Shown here in pieces: positions 9,288 through 47,144 of a stretch of DNA of 64,000 nucleotides. The position numbers and the translations under genes are program-made. The number at the start of each line of letters is the position of its first letter. The first letter of the stretch is position 1. Origin of the DNA: Diphasiastrum complanatum. Its lineage: Eukaryota > Streptophyta > Lycopodiopsida > Lycopodiales > Lycopodiaceae. Location of the stretch: assembly GCA_029204225.1 (NCBI GenBank), contig CM055095.1:76960471-77024470 (forward strand), in the 5' to 3' direction. Below the pieces are notes generated by a model. That model was not told the origin of the DNA. It ran no database searches and saw nothing but the letters and a program-made list of their open reading frames with translations.

Positions 9288-9941
9288 TGGTTGAAGAGAC
9301 TCAACTAGTTTCATCATATTTTTGTTATATTTCCATATTTGGCATATTGAGGCCAAAACTTGTTTTAGACTTGCAGATTGACTTTTCAAAGTTCTTTAGT
9401 TTAAATGTCATTTGAATAAACACTTTCTGAAAGTGTGGGAAAGTTAGAATGCGAGTTTGAGTAGATTCAAATTTGAATAGTTGGGTACATTGAATCTAGA
9501 CCAAAAATTAGTAAGGTTAGCATTTTGGTGGGAAAGCCAAGTGGCCATATAGGGTTTGGACCTGCTATAAAAGGATGTAACTCGTGGAGAGAGCTATCTT
9601 CTCTCTTATCTATCTCATTTCATGCTTATACATGGTTCTCTTGGGTTCTACTATCCATTGGTGCACTATCTTGGTGATTGCTTGCAATTCTATGTGTAGA
9701 ATGATCTATATTTGTTATTTTTGGATCCACACGCGTGAGATATAGTAGCTTGCTGGTTTTGTACGGACAACAACAATGCTATATGATTTCATTCAAGTTT
9801 GATCAAGTTCTATTAGTGTTTGCATCTCATTTTGTGTGTAGATGCTGATTTTTCTACATTGGTAAGATTCGTAGTATATGTCTCTTTCTAACCAAAGATC
9901 ATTCAAGTAGATTGGATCATAATGATCTGAAATCTTTCACA
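9288..9941 (+). repeat. 3' LTR of the plus-strand Copia element (654 bp)
   Basis: It starts about 15 codons past the RNase H end ('TGGTTGAAGAGACTCAACTAG', a mutated TGTGAAAAATTTCAACTAG) and ends GATCTGAAATCTTTCACA. Internal landmarks shared with the other family members are 'TTGAGGCCAAAAC', a 'TATAAAAGG' TATA-like box at about 9567, 'GGTTCT.TTGGGTTCTACTATCCATTGG' and 'TGTGTAGAATG'. The TATA box and downstream start region would drive element transcription. Confidence 0.75.
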
Positions 9942-11140: not shown

Positions 11141-11149
11141 TTCTTGCAG

Positions 11150-12325
11150 ATCTGCATTATTTGCTCCTTAGAATATTAAGGAAAATGCTTCAATTGGAAA
11201 GACATTGGGTTCAATGATTGGCAAGCAAATCCACTGAGTATATCATGATGAACAATAGGAGTTTTTAATGTAAAGTGCAAAATTGCAGAGTCTTTGATGG
11301 TGGACATTCAGAAAATTTTAGACAAGACTATAGTTCAGGGTGTCTATGATTTTGCAGGTATTAGCAGAGAAGCATTGCAACAATAGTTCAACTTATTAGA
11401 GAAAAAAACAAGTTCAAATTAGAAAAGTCCCTATGCCAAGGTCATATCACTTGAAGAAAGAGAGAAACACATTATACATAGGAATGCATAACATTATTGC
11501 TACCCCATTTCATATTGAGGAAGTGTACTCCATTGGAAGTGTATGAAACTGAAGGAAGATCAATATCTTATAATTCATCAAACAACTTCTTCTTTTTTAT
11601 TATCTAAATCACTTGCTAATATACATGATCACATTCTATGATATAACTTTTGAAAATGTGAGTCGTAAAATAATCATAATACTTAAATTAGATGAGACAG
11701 AAATTGTGAAAGGGTAGAAGATGGAGAGGGTTAATATAACCCTCATAAATGGTGCACTATCACAAACAATGGACAGGGGAGATTCAGATTCAGTGTCCAA
11801 TCCGAAAATAATATTTGGTGGTTGGCAGCTTTTTAGGTATTATCCCTCATTATTATATTTGATTTAATGAATAGTATTAATTCTTATTTAACTAAGTTTG
11901 ACTTATTCTTTGGACATGTTCTGAAGGGGGATTATTATATGTTATGATGGATATTTTGTAGAACATCTTATCCTAGGATCATCAAGGACCATATAGATGG
12001 AGGACTTCTCAATATTCCAAGAGTTGGAGACTTCAATATAGAATGGCACTTAGCAGATGATTTGAAAACATTGAAATGCATGTATAATGTCTTTCACGGT
12101 ACTACAGCTGAACATCCTTGTTTGTACTGCATGAAAATGGATGAAAGATGTTACAAGGAGTACAGACATTATGAGAGAAAATGTAGATCTAAACTGGAAG
12201 CCTGTATTGACAATTCCTTCGAAAAATGTGCACGTTTGCACTCTTCGTGAAGAGGTTAGGATAATAGAGAAGATCACATCACTCATTACATGGTTAGTAG
12301 AAATGACTAGAGCTGCTTTCTATTG
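11150..12325 (+). pseudogene. Transposase-like gene, copy A (HPCLYCM family, unidentified)
   Basis: Copy A matches copies B (18504-19370) and C (43936-45811). It begins after a splice-acceptor-like TTCTTGCAG with 'SALFAP*NIKENASIG'. Conserved pieces follow out of frame: 'AKLQSLMVDIQKIL', 'TPFHIEEV', 'RKIIIILKLDETEIVKG' (11667-11717), 'FSVQSENNIWWLAAF' (about 11790-11833), an intron-like gap (11837-11917), 'WIFCRTSYPRIIKDHI', 'EWHLADDLKTLKCMYNVFHG' and 'EHPCLYCMK'. After one more shift come 'PVLTIPSKNVHVCTLREEVR' and 'IIEKI'. Asp in KLDE, Asp in LADDLK and Glu in RIIEKI are candidate DDE residues (inference). The tail after RIIEKI, present in C, is lost. Confidence 0.7.
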
Positions 12326-12699
12326 AGCTGTATATTTTGATCTAAGCATAAGACTGACACTGCAATTTTGACATGTGTAGCATATACTAAGAGATTATGT
12401 AGCATTTTTTGCAAACATATTTGGAAGCTTGAGTATCTGGTCATCATTGGGGATGGAAAAGTCACATTGGCAAGCACGGGCAACATTTCATCAAAATACA
12501 CAACATGAAAGAACCAATGAAAAAGAAACTACATTTTTCAATTATTTCAATGGTTCTACAACAGAGTTTAAATTTGATAAATAACAAAATCCACAAGATA
12601 AAACAAGCTTAGAAAAACATGCAAGTTATACAAGAAGAGAGAAAATAGAAATTCCTATACATCGGATTGTACTGATATAAAATGTACAATATACATTGA
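12326..12699. other. Unassigned AT-rich gap
   Basis: No coding motif, LTR edge or tandem repeat was recognised between copy A and the CACGTG-bearing repeat. The short minus ORF 12307-12501 has no recognisable motif. Confidence 0.4.
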
Positions 12700-12951: not shown

Positions 12952-13593
12952 TGTGAAGAAATATGAATCACTAAGATCCAAATTTGTCCTCTTGATCTTT
13001 GGTATGAAAGTTAACACAATCTACACATTTGCAACATAGAAAAATCAGCATCTACTTAATGAAAGAGATACAAACTCAATAGAAACTTGATCAAACATCA
13101 AACATAAGATGAAATAAAGTTGTTGTCCATACAAAAATAGGTGGGTCTGAATATAGCATAAAATGAGCATTCTACACACAAGATTGCAAGATATCACCAA
13201 CATAGTGCACCAATGGATAGATGAACCCAAGAGAACTCATGTATAAGCATGAAATGAGATGAGAGAGAGACAGAGAGAAAGAAAGATTCTCTTCCCACAT
13301 GTGTATAGCTATATATGATAGATCCATGTCTCATTAATGATCTTGGTATCTCTCCATACCAAAAAATCCTACCATGAATGTGGACTAGATTCAATGTCTC
13401 CAACATTCAAATTTGAATCTATCAAACTCGACCTTCTACAATTTCCCGTGACTTTCTAAAAGTGGTAATTCAAATACATTAAAACTAAAATAACTTTGAA
13501 ATGACAATCTCTAAGTCTAATATGAAAATTGGCCTCAATTGTCAAATAAACAAATCTGACCAAAATTGACTAAACTAGTTGAAATCTTTTACA
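12952..13593 (-). repeat. Solo LTR (642 bp) with perfect 5-bp target-site duplication
   Basis: It begins TGTGAAGAAATATG and ends GAAATCTTTTACA. It is flanked on both sides by ACATG (12947-12951 and 13594-13598), an exact 5-bp target duplication. Reverse-complemented it carries the LTR landmarks of this window: 'TTCAACTAGTTTAG', 'AATTGAGGCC', 'TTTGAATTC..GTGGAG', 'TCTACACATAG' and 'AACCAAAGATCAAG'. No internal retroelement sequence lies beside it, so it is a solo LTR left by LTR-LTR recombination. It sits between two copies of the CACGTG repeat. Confidence 0.85.
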
Positions 13594-18503: not shown

Positions 18504-19370
18504 ATGTGCCAACATAAGTCATGGTTTCTTTTGCATGTCACTTTTATTCAACTAGACTTATTGCATGTGATGTGGCTCGAGTTCCTACAAGCCCATTTTT
18601 GGCATTTCTACAATCAACAACTACATGCATATGGAAAAACCTTATCAATTCCAAAAGTCGAGATAGATGATTTTTTCATTTTCAATGCCATCCTAGGCCG
18701 AAGACCGACCGACTATCTCCAAAAATGCATTGAGGTATGTTTTTTTTTTTTTCACCCTTGTGTTCACTTAGTGAATTACTGAAGGATGTGGAAGTGGCTA
18801 GGAAGAAGGAGGCTAGGAGTAAGAAGCAAAAGCGACAAAGTTGCAAGGATATTCAAACTCTTTTAAAAGGAGGTTATCGAAATAGAAGAATTTGTGTATT
18901 CAAGTAAGCATATTATGATTTTTTGTAACTTGATCAATGACATATGGTTTTATTTCAGCTACTATGATGTTGTACTAACTATTTGATTATTTGCAGATCT
19001 GCATTAGTAGCTCATCAGAATATTAAGGACAATGCTTCATTTGGAATGTCGTTGGACTCAATATTGATAGGCAAATCCACTGAGTGTATCAGGAGTTCCA
19101 ATGTAAAGTGCAAAATTGCAGAGTCTCTGATGCTAGACATTCAAAAAAATTTAGATAAGACTATAGTTCACGATGTTGGTGATTTTGCAGGTATTAGCAG
19201 AGAAGCATATGCAACAATATTTCAACTTATTAGAGAAGCTTTTAAACAAGTTCAGAAAAGTCCCTATCCCAAGGTCATATCACTTCAAGACAGAGATGAC
19301 TACATTAAACATAGGTATGCATAAGATCATTGGTACCCCATTTCATATTGAGAATATGCTCTTTACGGTG
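18504..19370 (+). pseudogene. Transposase-like gene, copy B (three exons still in frame)
   Basis: Exon 'IPKVEIDDFFIFNAILGR' to 'DYLQKCIE' ends before GTATGT at 18735. A following exon (18785-18903) reads a basic 'RKKEARSKKQKRQ' segment and ends 'NRRICVF' plus AA before GTAAGC. After a 93-bp intron (18904-18996, TTTGCAG) the next exon continues in frame as 'SALVAHQNIKDNASFGMSLD', 'KIAESLMLDIQKNLDKTIV' and 'DFAGISREAYATIFQLIREA'. The frame breaks near 19320, then gives 'KIIGTPFHIENML'. Copy C has an intron at the same site and phase. The 50-bp first intron is short for a plant. The later part with the HPCLYCM motif is absent. Exact start uncertain. Confidence 0.65.
18904..18996 (+). other. Predicted intron in copy B
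   Basis: GTAAGC donor, TTTGCAG acceptor, 93 bp. Removing it joins AA|A (Lys) in frame. Copy C has the same intron at 44334-44452 with GTATGT donor and GTTGCAG acceptor, again splitting a Lys codon AA|A. Conservation of site and phase between diverged copies supports a real intron. Confidence 0.7.
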
Positions 19371-43334: not shown

Positions 43335-43935
43335 CTATTTATTCTTCTTGCCATGGAGAGCTTGATCTTGATGTAGATTTTGAGAAGGGTAGTTGGTGAG
43401 CCTTTGAGAGGCTACATGCTTCACATATCTTCCCACACTTTGACAAATGCTTGGGGAGGCCGAGTGCAAGCTCCTTTGCACACATAGATTCCATGACTTT
43501 GAAGTTGGGGTGGCCCAACCTTTTGTGCCATAGTTCCACCTTTGATATCTCCACCTTTGCCAAGTTAACACTCTCCATTGCAATATTAGCATCAAGCTTA
43601 AACAATCTACCTTGCTTAAAGCCTTTGGCTATACATTCATCATTTCTAAGGATGGAACAAACCCCATGCTTAAATTGAACATCAAGGCCATTATCCATTA
43701 ATTGGCCAACACAAAGCAGATTTTTAGTTAATTTAGGAACATAAAGAACATTCTCAAGATTCATCCTTTTGGATGATCCAACATAAAATGGAATGATTCC
43801 TATTCCACTTACCTTACATTCTTGACTACTTGCAGTATAGATTGATCTATGTACATCATTGTAAGAAAGTAAAGTGAAAAAAATGTCCTTTTGATATGTC
43901 ATGTGGGAACTAGCCCACTATCAATCCACCAAGAA
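43335..43935 (-). pseudogene. pol: Copia protease end and GAG-pre-integrase, minus strand
   Basis: Starts with a mutated 'WWIDSGLVPT' (43935-43905) and continues in one frame 'MTYQKDIFFTLLSYNDVHRS', 'NLENVLYVPKLTKNLLCVGQ', 'ELWHKRLGHPNFKVMESMCA', 'CEACSLSKAHQLPFSKS'. The HxxxH/CxxC zinc-binding set of the integrase N-terminus is intact over 187 codons. It is related to the element at 1-3899. Both ends are sharp truncations: the right end meets copy C at 43936. Confidence 0.88.
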
Positions 43936-45811
43936 TGAAGGAAATAGCGGATTACTTGGATATTGCCAACGGTTGTGTGATATTGGAATGCATAGCATAT
44001 CTTGTCTTAATCAGCAATTATAGTTTGCTAATCAACAATTGCAACATGCAAATCAGCAATTGCTTCATTATGTGCAACACACTAGTGTTGAAAACAATGC
44101 ACTCAAGAATGCTATGTCAGAGTTGAATGCTACAATCACTACTCTTTGGGGATCAAACCAAGAAATGTTAGAATCCATGGACAAATTGCGATCTGAGAGT
44201 TTAAAATCCGTTGTTGATATAAAAGTTATCAAAAGGCAATGATGAGGAGGAAAAAAAAGAGAGTACCGATGAAGAATATTGATGACTTATCTACACATAG
44301 CGGCAATTGGAAGGAAAGAATTCGAGCATTCAAGTATGTTTTCATACAAACTGTTTATTTGATTTGTATATGTCATTTAAGTTTGATTTGCACTTGATAA
44401 CATGGATTATTTATTTATTAGACATAATTTGAGTTTCATATGTTTGTTGCAGATCATGTTTGGTGGCAAAGAACTATTTAACAGATCGTTCATGCATTGG
44501 ATCATCTTTAAGTCATGTTTTACCAAGAAAGTCAACAAAGGAAATGATGAAAAATGCTCAGTTTGAAAAAATGAAAAATGAAATTGCAAAGACTGTTTTG
44601 ATTAAGGTTCAATCATACTTGGATGCAAATGTGATACAAGGTGCATGTGATGTTTCTGGAATTAGCAGAAATGCTTATTCTACTTTTTTTAGAATAGTTA
44701 AATAAGCTTTTTCTCAAGTGATGGTGAAGAAAACTTATCTTCTGCGTCCGTATCGGGTAAGATTAGCAAGAAATTATTATAATGACGGAATGTTCAAAGT
44801 AGTTGGCCAACCACTTCATATAACTGAATTATACAAATTAGAATATGGTGAGCTCAATTAGAACGACCGCAATAATACTTTTCTTGATATTGAAAATGTT
44901 CTAAAATACATTATTCGATTCTATACTAGACGAACATCAAGTAAATGGAAAGATCATTATTGTAATAAAATTGGATGAATCTGAAATCATCAAAGGTCAA
45001 AAGTTGGAACAAGTGAGAATGTCGGCTTAACTAATGAGGAAAATGCCTACCAAGAATGTTTGCCAATTGTATTTCGTCGCAGAAGGTTTCACTTTGGTCA
45101 ACAAAATTTCAGATACAGATGATCAAACGTTTAGTGTTCAATCAAAAAATCACATATGGTGGTTGGCGGCATTCCAGATATACATTTCAATGTTCATTTA
45201 GAATATATTATTATTAACATTTCATACCTTGACAGTCTTTATTGACATGTCATGCATTACTTGCTTCTCTACAGGTCTTGAAAGAGGACCATAAAATACT
45301 TTCATGGATATTTTCAAGAACAAATTATGGCGAGATTATAAAGAGACATTTGGAGGCTGAGAAATTTATAGTCGAAAACCATGGAAGATTTCAAATTCAA
45401 TGGCACCTTGCAAGGGATTTTAAAACATTAAAATGTATGTATAATGTCTCTCATGGGGCAACATCAAAGCATCCATGTCTTTATTGCATGAAGGATTGCT
45501 ACAATAAGAATTTGGGACGATCAGACACTGGCCCAACACAAGAAGCTGAAGATCGAAACATGAAAAGTGTTCTACCAATTCCATTAAAAAGTATTTACAT
45601 ATGCACATTGCATGCTAAGGTTCGTATTATAGAAAAACTTATTTACCTCCATAGTCTACTAGCATGGAATCATAAACCGGAGCATGTGGCTAAAGCTGCA
45701 ATTAGGAGGTTGGAAATAGTTCTGTCAAATGCAGGACTACATAAAGGGAATCTCCAAATCATCATTAGCCCTTACTCAAAATTTGTACCTGCGTCAAAAT
45801 ACATTAAATAG
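43936..45811 (+). pseudogene. Transposase-like gene, copy C (most complete of the family)
   Basis: A Gln/Asn/Leu-rich probable coiled coil ('FANQQLQHANQQLLHYVQ') leads, with one shift, to 'STHSGNWKERIRAF'. An intron follows (44334-44452). Exon 2 reads 'SCLVAKNYLTDRSCIGSS', 'ANVIQGACDVSGISRNAYST', a stop at 44703, 'VVGQPLHITELYKLEYGEL', 'KIIIVIKLDESEIIKGQKLE' and 'FSVQSKNHIWWLAAFQ'. A second intron (45177-45274; donor ATATAC, acceptor CTACAG) leads to exon 3, open to 45811: 'VLKEDHKILSWIFSRTNYGE', 'HLARDFKTLKCMYNVSHGAT', 'KHPCLYCMK', 'PIPLKSIYICTLHAKVRIIE', 'LEIVLSNAGLHKGNLQ'. Candidate DDE residues: KLDE, ARDFK, RIIEK (inference). The CxxC in HPCLYC may bind zinc. At least one stop and two shifts make it a pseudogene. 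Confidence 0.7.
44334..44452 (+). other. Predicted intron 1 in copy C
   Basis: GTATGT donor, GTTGCAG acceptor, 119 bp. It splits a Lys codon AA|A, the same site and phase as in copy B (18904-18996). Copy A keeps the acceptor TTCTTGCAG at 11141-11149. Confidence 0.7.
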
Positions 45812-46163
45812 TCTATCACTAGCCTCTCCGAATCATCATTAAACAAATACTAAACAAATATTAAATGGACATAATTGAAAAACATGTACAAGGGCAATTA
45901 TTATAGTCTCTCGTCCTATTTAAGCACCATAAAGACGAATTTTTTTTTTTTTGAGCTAATTGTTCATTCAGAACATTTTCATAAGGCAAATCATTTTGAA
46001 AGAGCCGATATCGATTCCACGCGAGAGGGCAAGTGCTTCACCGAAACAGATCAAATAGACGTGTGTTGATGAGATACTTCGGTATGGCAAATCGGATATC
46101 GGATCAGCGCGCCTGTCCCAAAAAAAATGATTTTTCAACTTGGACTATGCATATTGTTTAGCT
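45812..46163. other. Unassigned 3' flank of copy C
   Basis: AT-rich, with a T12-like run near 45940. No terminal inverted repeat that would close copy C as a DNA transposon was recognised. Confidence 0.35.
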
Positions 46164-46273
46164 ATTGGAATGCATTATGAATCATCAAAGCTTGCTTTGG
46201 GAGATTCCTCATACATCCAAAGCTAAAAAAAAATTGTCGAAGCAAGCTTTGATGATTCATATTGCATTCCAAT
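46164..46273. repeat. Foldback: 34-bp inverted repeat with one mismatch
   Basis: Arm 46164-46197 (starts ATTGGAATGCATTATGAATC) and arm 46240-46273 (ends TATTGCATTCCAAT) are complementary at 33 of 34 positions around a 42-base loop. A diverged version of the left arm and loop ('ATGATCAAAGCTTGATTCGG', 'ACTATCCAAAGCTAAGAAG') follows at about 46410-46470, so the structure belongs to a local tandem repeat. It could be a MITE remnant or a hairpin-RNA source; neither is shown. Confidence 0.8.
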
Positions 46274-47144
46274 ATATTTTCAGTGTGTCGCAGATATCAA
46301 ATTAATACGCTTGGAAGAAGAAAGTGATTTTCCACTTGGATTGTGCATGTCAAATCGCTATTGCTAAAAAAAAAGATTTTTGAAAATTGTCGGAATTATT
46401 GGATGACATTATGCATGATCAAAGCTTGATTCGGTAGACTCTTCATACTATCCAAAGCTAAGAAGAATCTATCAAGTCAGGCTCCCTACCTGAGGAATTG
46501 AGTTAATGATCTGTATCCATGTTAGTAATGAAGATAATTGTTTCTAATATATTCATGAACTACTTGAGCTCTTTAACCGTGACTAGACTTTAGTTGTTGA
46601 GGACTTCTGTCTAGAATACATTAGTTCATGAAGAAGATTAACTTTTTGTTTGTTCATACATGTTTGCATGGAACATAACACAGATCCATACTGACAACTT
46701 AATCAGTCAGAGCGTAATTCATTTCAGTTACTCTGATATAATTCTACATATAGAATGTTTTTCATTCGGTTTGATAGAGGAAGATTGTTGTTTGGAATTC
46801 ATTTATCAACACACAGCACAATACAAGTAATACTAATTATCTATAAAATGTCTGTTGACAACCAGATTTTCATTCAACTCCATTTCATTTAAAATAAGTC
46901 CAAGTTTGTATCAATTAAACAACTTATTAAGTGCTATCTCCTTGGGAAATGATCTAAATACTACATAAATATAGCAATTCTGTGTTGGTATATTGCGACA
47001 GTGAAATATAGTGAAATGGTGAAATGAAAATGTGAAAGACTAGTTGATGAGGCATCCAGAACCACCAGAGACAAGAACGAGTAATCAATCATATTTAGGA
47101 TAGTTATAGTGACGATTCCAATCCATTGGCCTCTCCCGTACACT
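46274..47144. other. Unassigned region
   Basis: Apart from the decayed repeat of the foldback near 46410-46470, no coding motif or repeat was recognised. Confidence 0.35.

Follow-up and report, generated by a model that had tools for sequence, protein, structure and literature searches.

The HPCLYCM-bearing sequences of Diphasiastrum complanatum are, with good confidence, decayed remnants of a plant cut-and-paste DNA transposon. Its two-ended copies reach ~11-12 kb and, at the same level of confidence, combine four genes in one element; among them are a probable transposase gene and a gene for a histone H3 in which lysine 4 is the only common tail lysine. The window analysed here, a stretch of 64,000 nucleotides (C4:76960471-77024470) of the 1.74-Gb genome, holds three fragments of this element, copies A, B and C, none of which is a complete unit.

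Genome-wide, a 601-bp query from copy C returned 2,030 first-look candidates, and 40 were scored. The listed matches include the window itself and a near-identical contig (100%); all others share 85-96% identity with the query. When the exons of a better genomic copy were compared with the window by tblastn, copy C was recovered at 43937-45760 (E down to 7e-105), copy A at 11270-12524 (E down to 3e-31) and copy B at 19004-19252 only. These E values for A and C, together with the 2,030 candidates, confirm that the HPCLYCM sequences are real and repeated beyond chance. The initial annotation had credited all three copies with common protein blocks, which is correct for A and C; since the match of B is limited to 19004-19252, a part of exon 2 only, two copies rather than three possess all the blocks. 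No piece of genes 2, 3 or 4 matches the window by tblastn at E up to 0.001, and the histone gene is absent from the window.

Copy C lies on the plus strand and, as delimited by blastn to genomic copies, spans 43936..46484, with 86-94% identity over 43936-45754 and ~74-87% over 45747-46484. Compared with eight further genomic loci, it has lost the left ~650 bp and is broken off on its right side. The end given earlier, 45811, has to be abandoned, as blastn places an internal deletion at ~45754/45757, beyond which element DNA runs on to ~46484. Translation of the plus strand yields GISRNAY (44658-44678), KLDESEI (44968-44988), IWWLAAF (45154-45174), LARDFKTLK (45407-45433), HPCLYCM (45470-45490) and RIIEK (45623-45637). 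Gene 1 begins with a partial exon 1 at 43936..44333, which includes a coiled-coil-like stretch, is covered by tblastn at 43937-44307 with 83-84% identity and has its end set at the intron border. The reading frames indicate an intron 1 at 44334..44452 with GT...AG borders, the splicing itself being read from the frames. The expected donor of intron 2 is AG/AT in copies C and C9, and GT in copy A. Exon 2 (44453..45176; tblastn E 7e-105) carries GISRNAY and the first acidic motif, KLDE. Stops interrupt it, as does a 69-bp insertion at 45018-45085, which the near-identical contig C3120 alone shares among the matches listed. A partial exon 3 (45275..45754; tblastn E 6e-89, 84% identity) contributes LARDFK, HPCLYCM and RIIEK. 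Comparison with genomic copies identifies the plus-strand segment 45757..46484 as part of the interval between genes 2 and 3, joined on by the internal deletion, with one TATCGattCcACGCG-type repeat at 46007. We also note a 192-aa open frame on the minus strand at 43339-43917, directly left of copy C where the copy breaks off, which we take to resemble a piece of a copia-type polyprotein.

Copy A (11144..12530, plus strand) comprises gene 1 exons 2-4 of a diverged subfamily and was matched by tblastn at 33-87% identity, depending on the piece, with E to 3e-31. Its translated motifs on that strand are GISREA (11357-11374), KLDETEI (11685-11705), IWWLAAF (11813-11833), LADDLKTLK (12050-12076), HPCLYCM (12113-12133) and RIIEK (12258-12272). 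The copy is broken by frameshifts and stops, and a shortened interval separates exon 3 (to 12284) from exon 4 (12387-12524). It had been terminated at 12325, and exon 4, with SLGMEKSHWQAR at 12444-12479, was thereby overlooked; the copy extends to ~12524. Genome-wide, 5,160 first-look candidates, of which 40 were scored, were obtained for the subfamily of copy A. Two pairs of inverted-repeat arms, one of 96 nt (81%) and one of 105 nt (72%), flank the copy at 9635-9861 and 13032-13236, ~3.2-3.4 kb apart; they could represent internal repeats of the diverged element, or else a separate insertion.

Copy B is reduced to an N-terminal piece of gene 1 exon 2 (18991..19352, plus strand; tblastn E 1e-12, 37% identity). 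The match covers residues 2-88 of the exon, and GDFAGISREAY stands at 19178-19210. DNA similarity to copy A of 85-90% extends over 18991-19062, 19100-19208 and 19254-19352. In the tblastn comparison of the exons with the window, copy B gave no match to KLDE, IWWLAAF, HPCLYCM or RIIEK, and positions 18504-18990, formerly taken as its beginning, gave no match. The dN/dS ratio of this exon 2 piece is 0.45, over only 48 codons.

The element starts 5'-CATTAGGGG and finishes CCCCTAATG-3', the two termini forming 35-bp imperfect inverted repeats. The left boundary is sharp, with CATTAGGGGAAATATGGGCTCAAAATGGGCCC in most copies, and the right boundary, CATTAGGGGATATTAGAACTCAAAATGGGCCC, which is an imperfect inverse of the left, was reached by extending copies that bear gene 3; an early reading of the element as one without a matching terminal repeat was wrong, the right end having been located later. 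The first 21 bases of the left end, with up to 2 mismatches, match 1,249 places in the genome, and 27 bases of the right end, with up to 3 mismatches, match 1,131 (controls: 0 for the reversed pattern of the left end and 0 for the right). The search for ends suggested in the initial annotation has in this way shown the family to be a dispersed transposon whose termini are inverted repeats, and the single-copy host gene that it named as the contrary case does not hold, the family being highly repeated in the genome. The 35-base ends agree in 10 and 17 bases, and their differences fall mostly in the 8 bases between. This 8-base block, AATATGGG on one side and TATTAGAA on the other, distinguishes left from right ends and is constant among the copies compared; by their sequence, the two ends look as if they were differently bound.

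Eight pairs of left and right ends facing each other, 2.0-11.9 kb apart, were found by eye among the 100 places listed per end, and their flanks differ. One is a duplicate of another and was dropped from the target-site counts, which leaves seven distinct pairs. All eight have CATTAG...CTAATG ends, a sequence for which the pairs had been selected. In none of the seven do both ends border an exact repeat of more than 1 bp, and comparison of the 6-bp flanks gives 5, 5, 4, 4, 2, 1 and 0 matches. With small offsets allowed, exact runs of at least 5 occur in 2/7 true pairs versus 1/42 mismatched control pairs, and runs of at least 4 in 3/7 versus 3/42. The flank matches suggest, short of proof, a decayed target duplication of 5-6 bp. 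Longer exact end patterns located 52 right and 82 left places with no new facing pair by eye, and a 1,959-bp deletion derivative, when searched for sister copies, returned pieces only.

The two-ended element at C2:66524905-66536223 measures 11,319 bp and contains all four genes. In the numbering of the fetched piece, in which position 61 is the first base of the element, gene 1 (the HPCLYCM protein) occupies 514-2600 on the plus strand, gene 2 4714-2776 on the minus strand, gene 3 (histone H3) 6305 to ~7850 on the plus strand and gene 4 10943-9749 on the minus strand. This element is not intact, because a part of gene 1 exon 2 has been lost, and no intact copy was seen among the copies examined. 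The same gene order recurs at independent loci, namely on C6 (left half and H3) and at C9:60229041 and C16:5763306 (H3 and right half). A second two-ended element of 11.87 kb, on C3, has no gene 3 matches, and many other copies are truncated or rearranged. Two loci on C8, L016 (C8:25088000-25095500) and L017 (C8:11765300-11772800), of 7.5 kb each, are 99.8% identical, lie 13 Mb apart in opposite orientation and each have a left end and the right half of the element facing oppositely; the pair is either a segmental duplication or an assembly duplicate.

The likeness of gene 1 to known transposases lies in the order of its motifs. As outlined in PMC12730594, the CMCT clade unites CACTA/EnSpm, Mirage, Chapaev, Transib (RAG1), Plavaka, ESTA and Lanisha; its transposases have the order second D, C(2)C, H(3-4)H, E, and its elements have CA..TG ends and 2-5 bp target duplications. 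In gene 1, exon 1 carries the coiled-coil-like stretch, exon 2 GISR(N/E)AY and KLDE, exon 3 LA(R/D/G)D, HPCLYCM and RIIEK, and exon 4 HILLHH...GMEKSHWQARGAFHRATNHGG. Three conserved acidic residues had been proposed for this protein. The D...D...CxxC part of that proposal stands, LA(R/D)D followed by HPCLYCM being present in A, C and most copies printed, and the Asp of LA(R/D)D may well be catalytic. For the third catalytic residue, the Glu of GMEKSHW, which lies in an additional exon, is a likelier candidate than the Glu of RIIEK originally chosen, because E comes after H(3-4)H in the CMCT order and only the GMEK Glu follows the H(4)H. HILLHH or HILLYH is situated ~20 residues before GMEK, and the H(4)H is present in 8/10 copies scanned with a search pattern that required this form; it is altered in window copy A. 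The Glu of RIIEK is kept in 6/7 copies printed (K in C9), with D in the diverged R16 copy, and that of GMEK in 4/8 copies printed plus window copy A; the RIIEK Glu is at least as well conserved, and the choice of GMEK follows motif order, not conservation. A further diverged relative of gene 1 (L024, C16 ~5773136-5773689, minus strand; 38-54% identity by piece) has Asp for Glu in its RIIEK-like motif.

On these motifs, gene 1 probably encodes a DD(E) transposase with the C(2)C/H(4)H pattern, of CACTA-Transib (CMCT) type, and its product would cut and join at the inverted repeats. The element shares the order D, D-C(2)C, H(4)H, E and the CA..TG ends with the CMCT elements described in PMC12730594, and differs from them in having CATTAG rather than CAC at its ends, a target duplication of perhaps 5-6 bp and a histone as cargo. 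The gene 1 exons gave nothing above cut-off in Pfam or PDB searches. Transposase_21 (PF02992) did not match gene 1 in Pfam, and the hAT models of Pfam gave no match to it at E up to 10. PF02992 did find 180 matches in the genome, from 150 scored of 5,473 candidates, so that ordinary CACTA elements are recognised there and the HPCLYCM family is not. Alignment of gene 1 with the CACTA TNP2 profile by hhalign gave no match, in a comparison of two very shallow alignments with too little diversity to exclude homology, and a search for the H...H...E spacing in four CACTA loci found nothing. CACTA/EnSpm elements end in CACTA/CACTG and duplicate 3 bp of their target; the present ends are CATTAG, and the seven distinct pairs have neither those ends nor an exact 3-bp duplication. 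AlphaFold modelling of exon 3 from the window gave a pLDDT of 35, too low for an RNase H fold to be read from the model. Among the PF02992 (CACTA TNP2) matches listed, 22 fall within 1.6 Mb at C1:48.58-50.20 Mb, perhaps a local burst or an array.

Genes 2 and 4 encode two proteins on the minus strand, opposite to genes 1 and 3; neither has a Pfam match above cut-off, and both would be accessory. A TATCGGTTCGACGCG-like motif, partly in inverted pairs ~50 bp apart, is found in the two-ended element close to where gene 2 starts and immediately past gene 3; in other copies it lies close to the gene 3 start. The two-ended element has 5 such sites, versus 0 or 1 in each of 10 dinucleotide-matched random sequences, and the motif may be a shared regulatory site. 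It is also seen in copy C, at window positions 46007-46023.

Gene 3 encodes a histone H3 with a long C-terminal extension and a proline/arginine-rich tail. A 156-aa piece from locus L020 matches Pfam Histone PF00125 (1.7e-18, 67.5 bits versus a cut-off of 26.4) and H3 chains in PDB (1.1e-17 and weaker), the match beginning at the tail Met. At locus L019 an open frame of 378 aa starts with the histone fold; the C-terminal part has no Pfam match above cut-off, and a reading of the gene 3 C-terminus as a Ulp1-like protease was dropped, being without Pfam support. Two subfamily H3 probes gave 1,237 and 1,303 first-look candidates, 40 of each being scored. Twenty-nine copies were read in register; 9 of them came from loci already retrieved and 20 were picked out of 80 listed rows; L022/L060 and L061/L062 look like duplicate loci, and all four are counted among the 29. 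The tail starts in most copies as M-(A/T/V)-(R/W/Q)-T-K-Q-T-(A/T)-R-G, in which ARTKQTAR is kept in outline. K4 is present in 29/29 copies; this constancy carries little weight alone, given that several other codons do not vary in these young copies either. Position 9 is never lysine (G in 27, I in 1, R in 1), position 14 is lysine in 1/29, and elsewhere in the first 46 positions lysine occurs in at most 3/29 copies per position, which leaves K4 as the only common tail lysine. None of the 29 copies has the canonical ARTKQTARK tail with K4, K9, K14 and further lysines.

Genes 1, 3 and 4 and three of the five gene 2 pieces have been under purifying selection in the past, between subfamilies. For H3, the dN/dS within groups is 0.99 among 17 copies (136 pairs) and 0.83 among 11 (55 pairs), and between groups 0.42 (187 pairs; tail 0.48, fold 0.40), the two groups being defined by the probe that found them and not by a tree, with copy C18 kept apart. 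C18 against the rest gives 0.47, and L020 gives 0.18 against E66 and 0.38 against C18. The ancestral H3 ratio should be lower, since terminal decay is mixed into the between-group figures. Gene 4 gives 0.28, 0.27 and 0.32 against the diverged C6 copy and 0.34-1.22 against nearer copies, and of the five gene 2 pieces compared with E66, three have ratios of 0.17, 0.22 and 0.20 and the other two 1.07 and 1.06. For gene 1, window copy A against C9 gives 0.17 over 179 codons of exon 2 and 0.22 over 110 codons of exon 3, values that are rough because synonymous sites are near saturation; within C9's own subfamily the ratio is 0.30-1.61, and against the R16 relative it was not correctable (pS 0.764). 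In gene 1, these ratios indicate selection during subfamily divergence, followed by decay of the copies.

Three other accounts of what the element is have to be weighed. Gene 1 could represent a separate, undescribed transposase superfamily whose likeness to CMCT is a convergence of the zinc-binding pattern. The failure to match Transposase_21, any other Pfam family or TNP2 by hhalign speaks for this, as does a target duplication of possibly 5-6 rather than 2-5 bp; nevertheless, motif order, spacing and CA..TG ends are all as PMC12730594 describes for CMCT, and the profile test had almost no sequence diversity to work with, so that we regard a separate superfamily as unlikely. Still less credence, amounting to a slight chance, goes to the idea that the four genes do not form one element and that nested insertions joined the histone gene and gene 4 to gene 1. 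Copies are often rearranged, the C8 halves are oppositely oriented and several loci have one half only; against this, the order is collinear in the two-ended C2 element, on C6 and at C9:60229041 and C16:5763306, with identical ends. The presence of several genes, on both strands, of a histone among their products and of a promoter-like motif common to two genes might also bring to mind an integrated large DNA virus, and some virus groups do encode histones. Among the pieces scanned, however, no viral hallmark gene rose above its Pfam cut-off, one capsid-protein model appearing at E 0.035, far below its own; no relative was found in the viral contig collection, and each inverted-repeat end is present in more than 1,000 copies, which together make a virus extremely improbable. 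Searches of viral contigs and prokaryote genomes confirmed no relatives. A DNA transposon with four genes of its own remains the preferred reading.

What the histone does for this transposon is a matter of more evenly divided opinion. In plants, H3K9me2 coupled to DNA methylation is the main route of transposon silencing, and since silencing depends largely on that mark, an element H3 placed on the element would resist it. The histone would enter nucleosomes with host H4, where it could carry K4 methylation and not K9 methylation; with K4 kept and K9 and the other usual tail lysines missing, the element would escape silencing by H3K9 methylation. We therefore put forward, tentatively and with rather less than even confidence, that a transposon lineage evolved its own H3, keeping K4, the site of an active mark, and discarding K9 and the other regulatory lysines, such that its nucleosomes could not be locked into the silencing loop of H3K9me2 and DNA methylation. 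There is a nearly even chance that the histone is instead a passenger captured by transduplication and kept for another reason, such as host H3 dosage or packaging during transposition, with no escape from silencing. Plant and fungal transposons often carry pieces of host genes, the histone decays neutrally within subfamilies (0.99, 0.83), and a fungal element with an H3-like gene is described in PMC3538342 as a transduplication of unknown function. In contrast, the ratio between subfamilies is 0.42, with 0.18 for E66 against L020, and the protein has diverged widely from host H3 without losing the fold or the start of the tail, a profile that suits a gene long maintained in working order better than a recent fragment.

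If escape from silencing by the element's own histone is correct, a parasite supplies its own silencing-resistant chromatin: a mobile element would alter the substrate of silencing and not an enzyme, in a high-copy transposon whose histone was kept by selection during subfamily divergence. Evasion of silencing by parasites through their own nucleosomes thereby becomes testable. The annotation of plant genomes gains a transposase family that Pfam misses and that has the motif order of CACTA, Transib and RAG1. Among the titles and opening abstract lines listed from the open-access literature, with Repbase and most subscription papers outside the search, no report appeared of a histone carried by a plant transposon, of a K4-only histone tail or of the gene 1 family, and a prior description is possible.

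Histone-bearing transposons as a class have been seen before: a hAT transposon of ~5.6 kb with an H3-like gene, H3L, has been published from the fungus Pyrenophora tritici-repentis (PMC3538342). That element is a precedent for the plant one as a transposon with an H3-like gene. It differs in its hAT transposase and its ~5.6 kb, compared with a non-hAT gene 1, four genes and 11-12 kb here; the plant histone, the one whose tail was read, has K4 as its only common tail lysine. Cargo directed at host silencing also has parallels in VANDAL elements of Arabidopsis, which encode the anti-silencing protein VANC (PMC10398659, PMC5735166), and in fungal transposons with TET/JBP cargo (PMC12730594). In these systems, too, an extra protein encoded by the transposon counters, or is thought to counter, silencing by the host. 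This is in contrast to the agent proposed here: those elements use sequence-specific proteins or a DNA-demethylating enzyme, whereas the lycopod element would use a histone predicted to be unable to carry the silencing mark.
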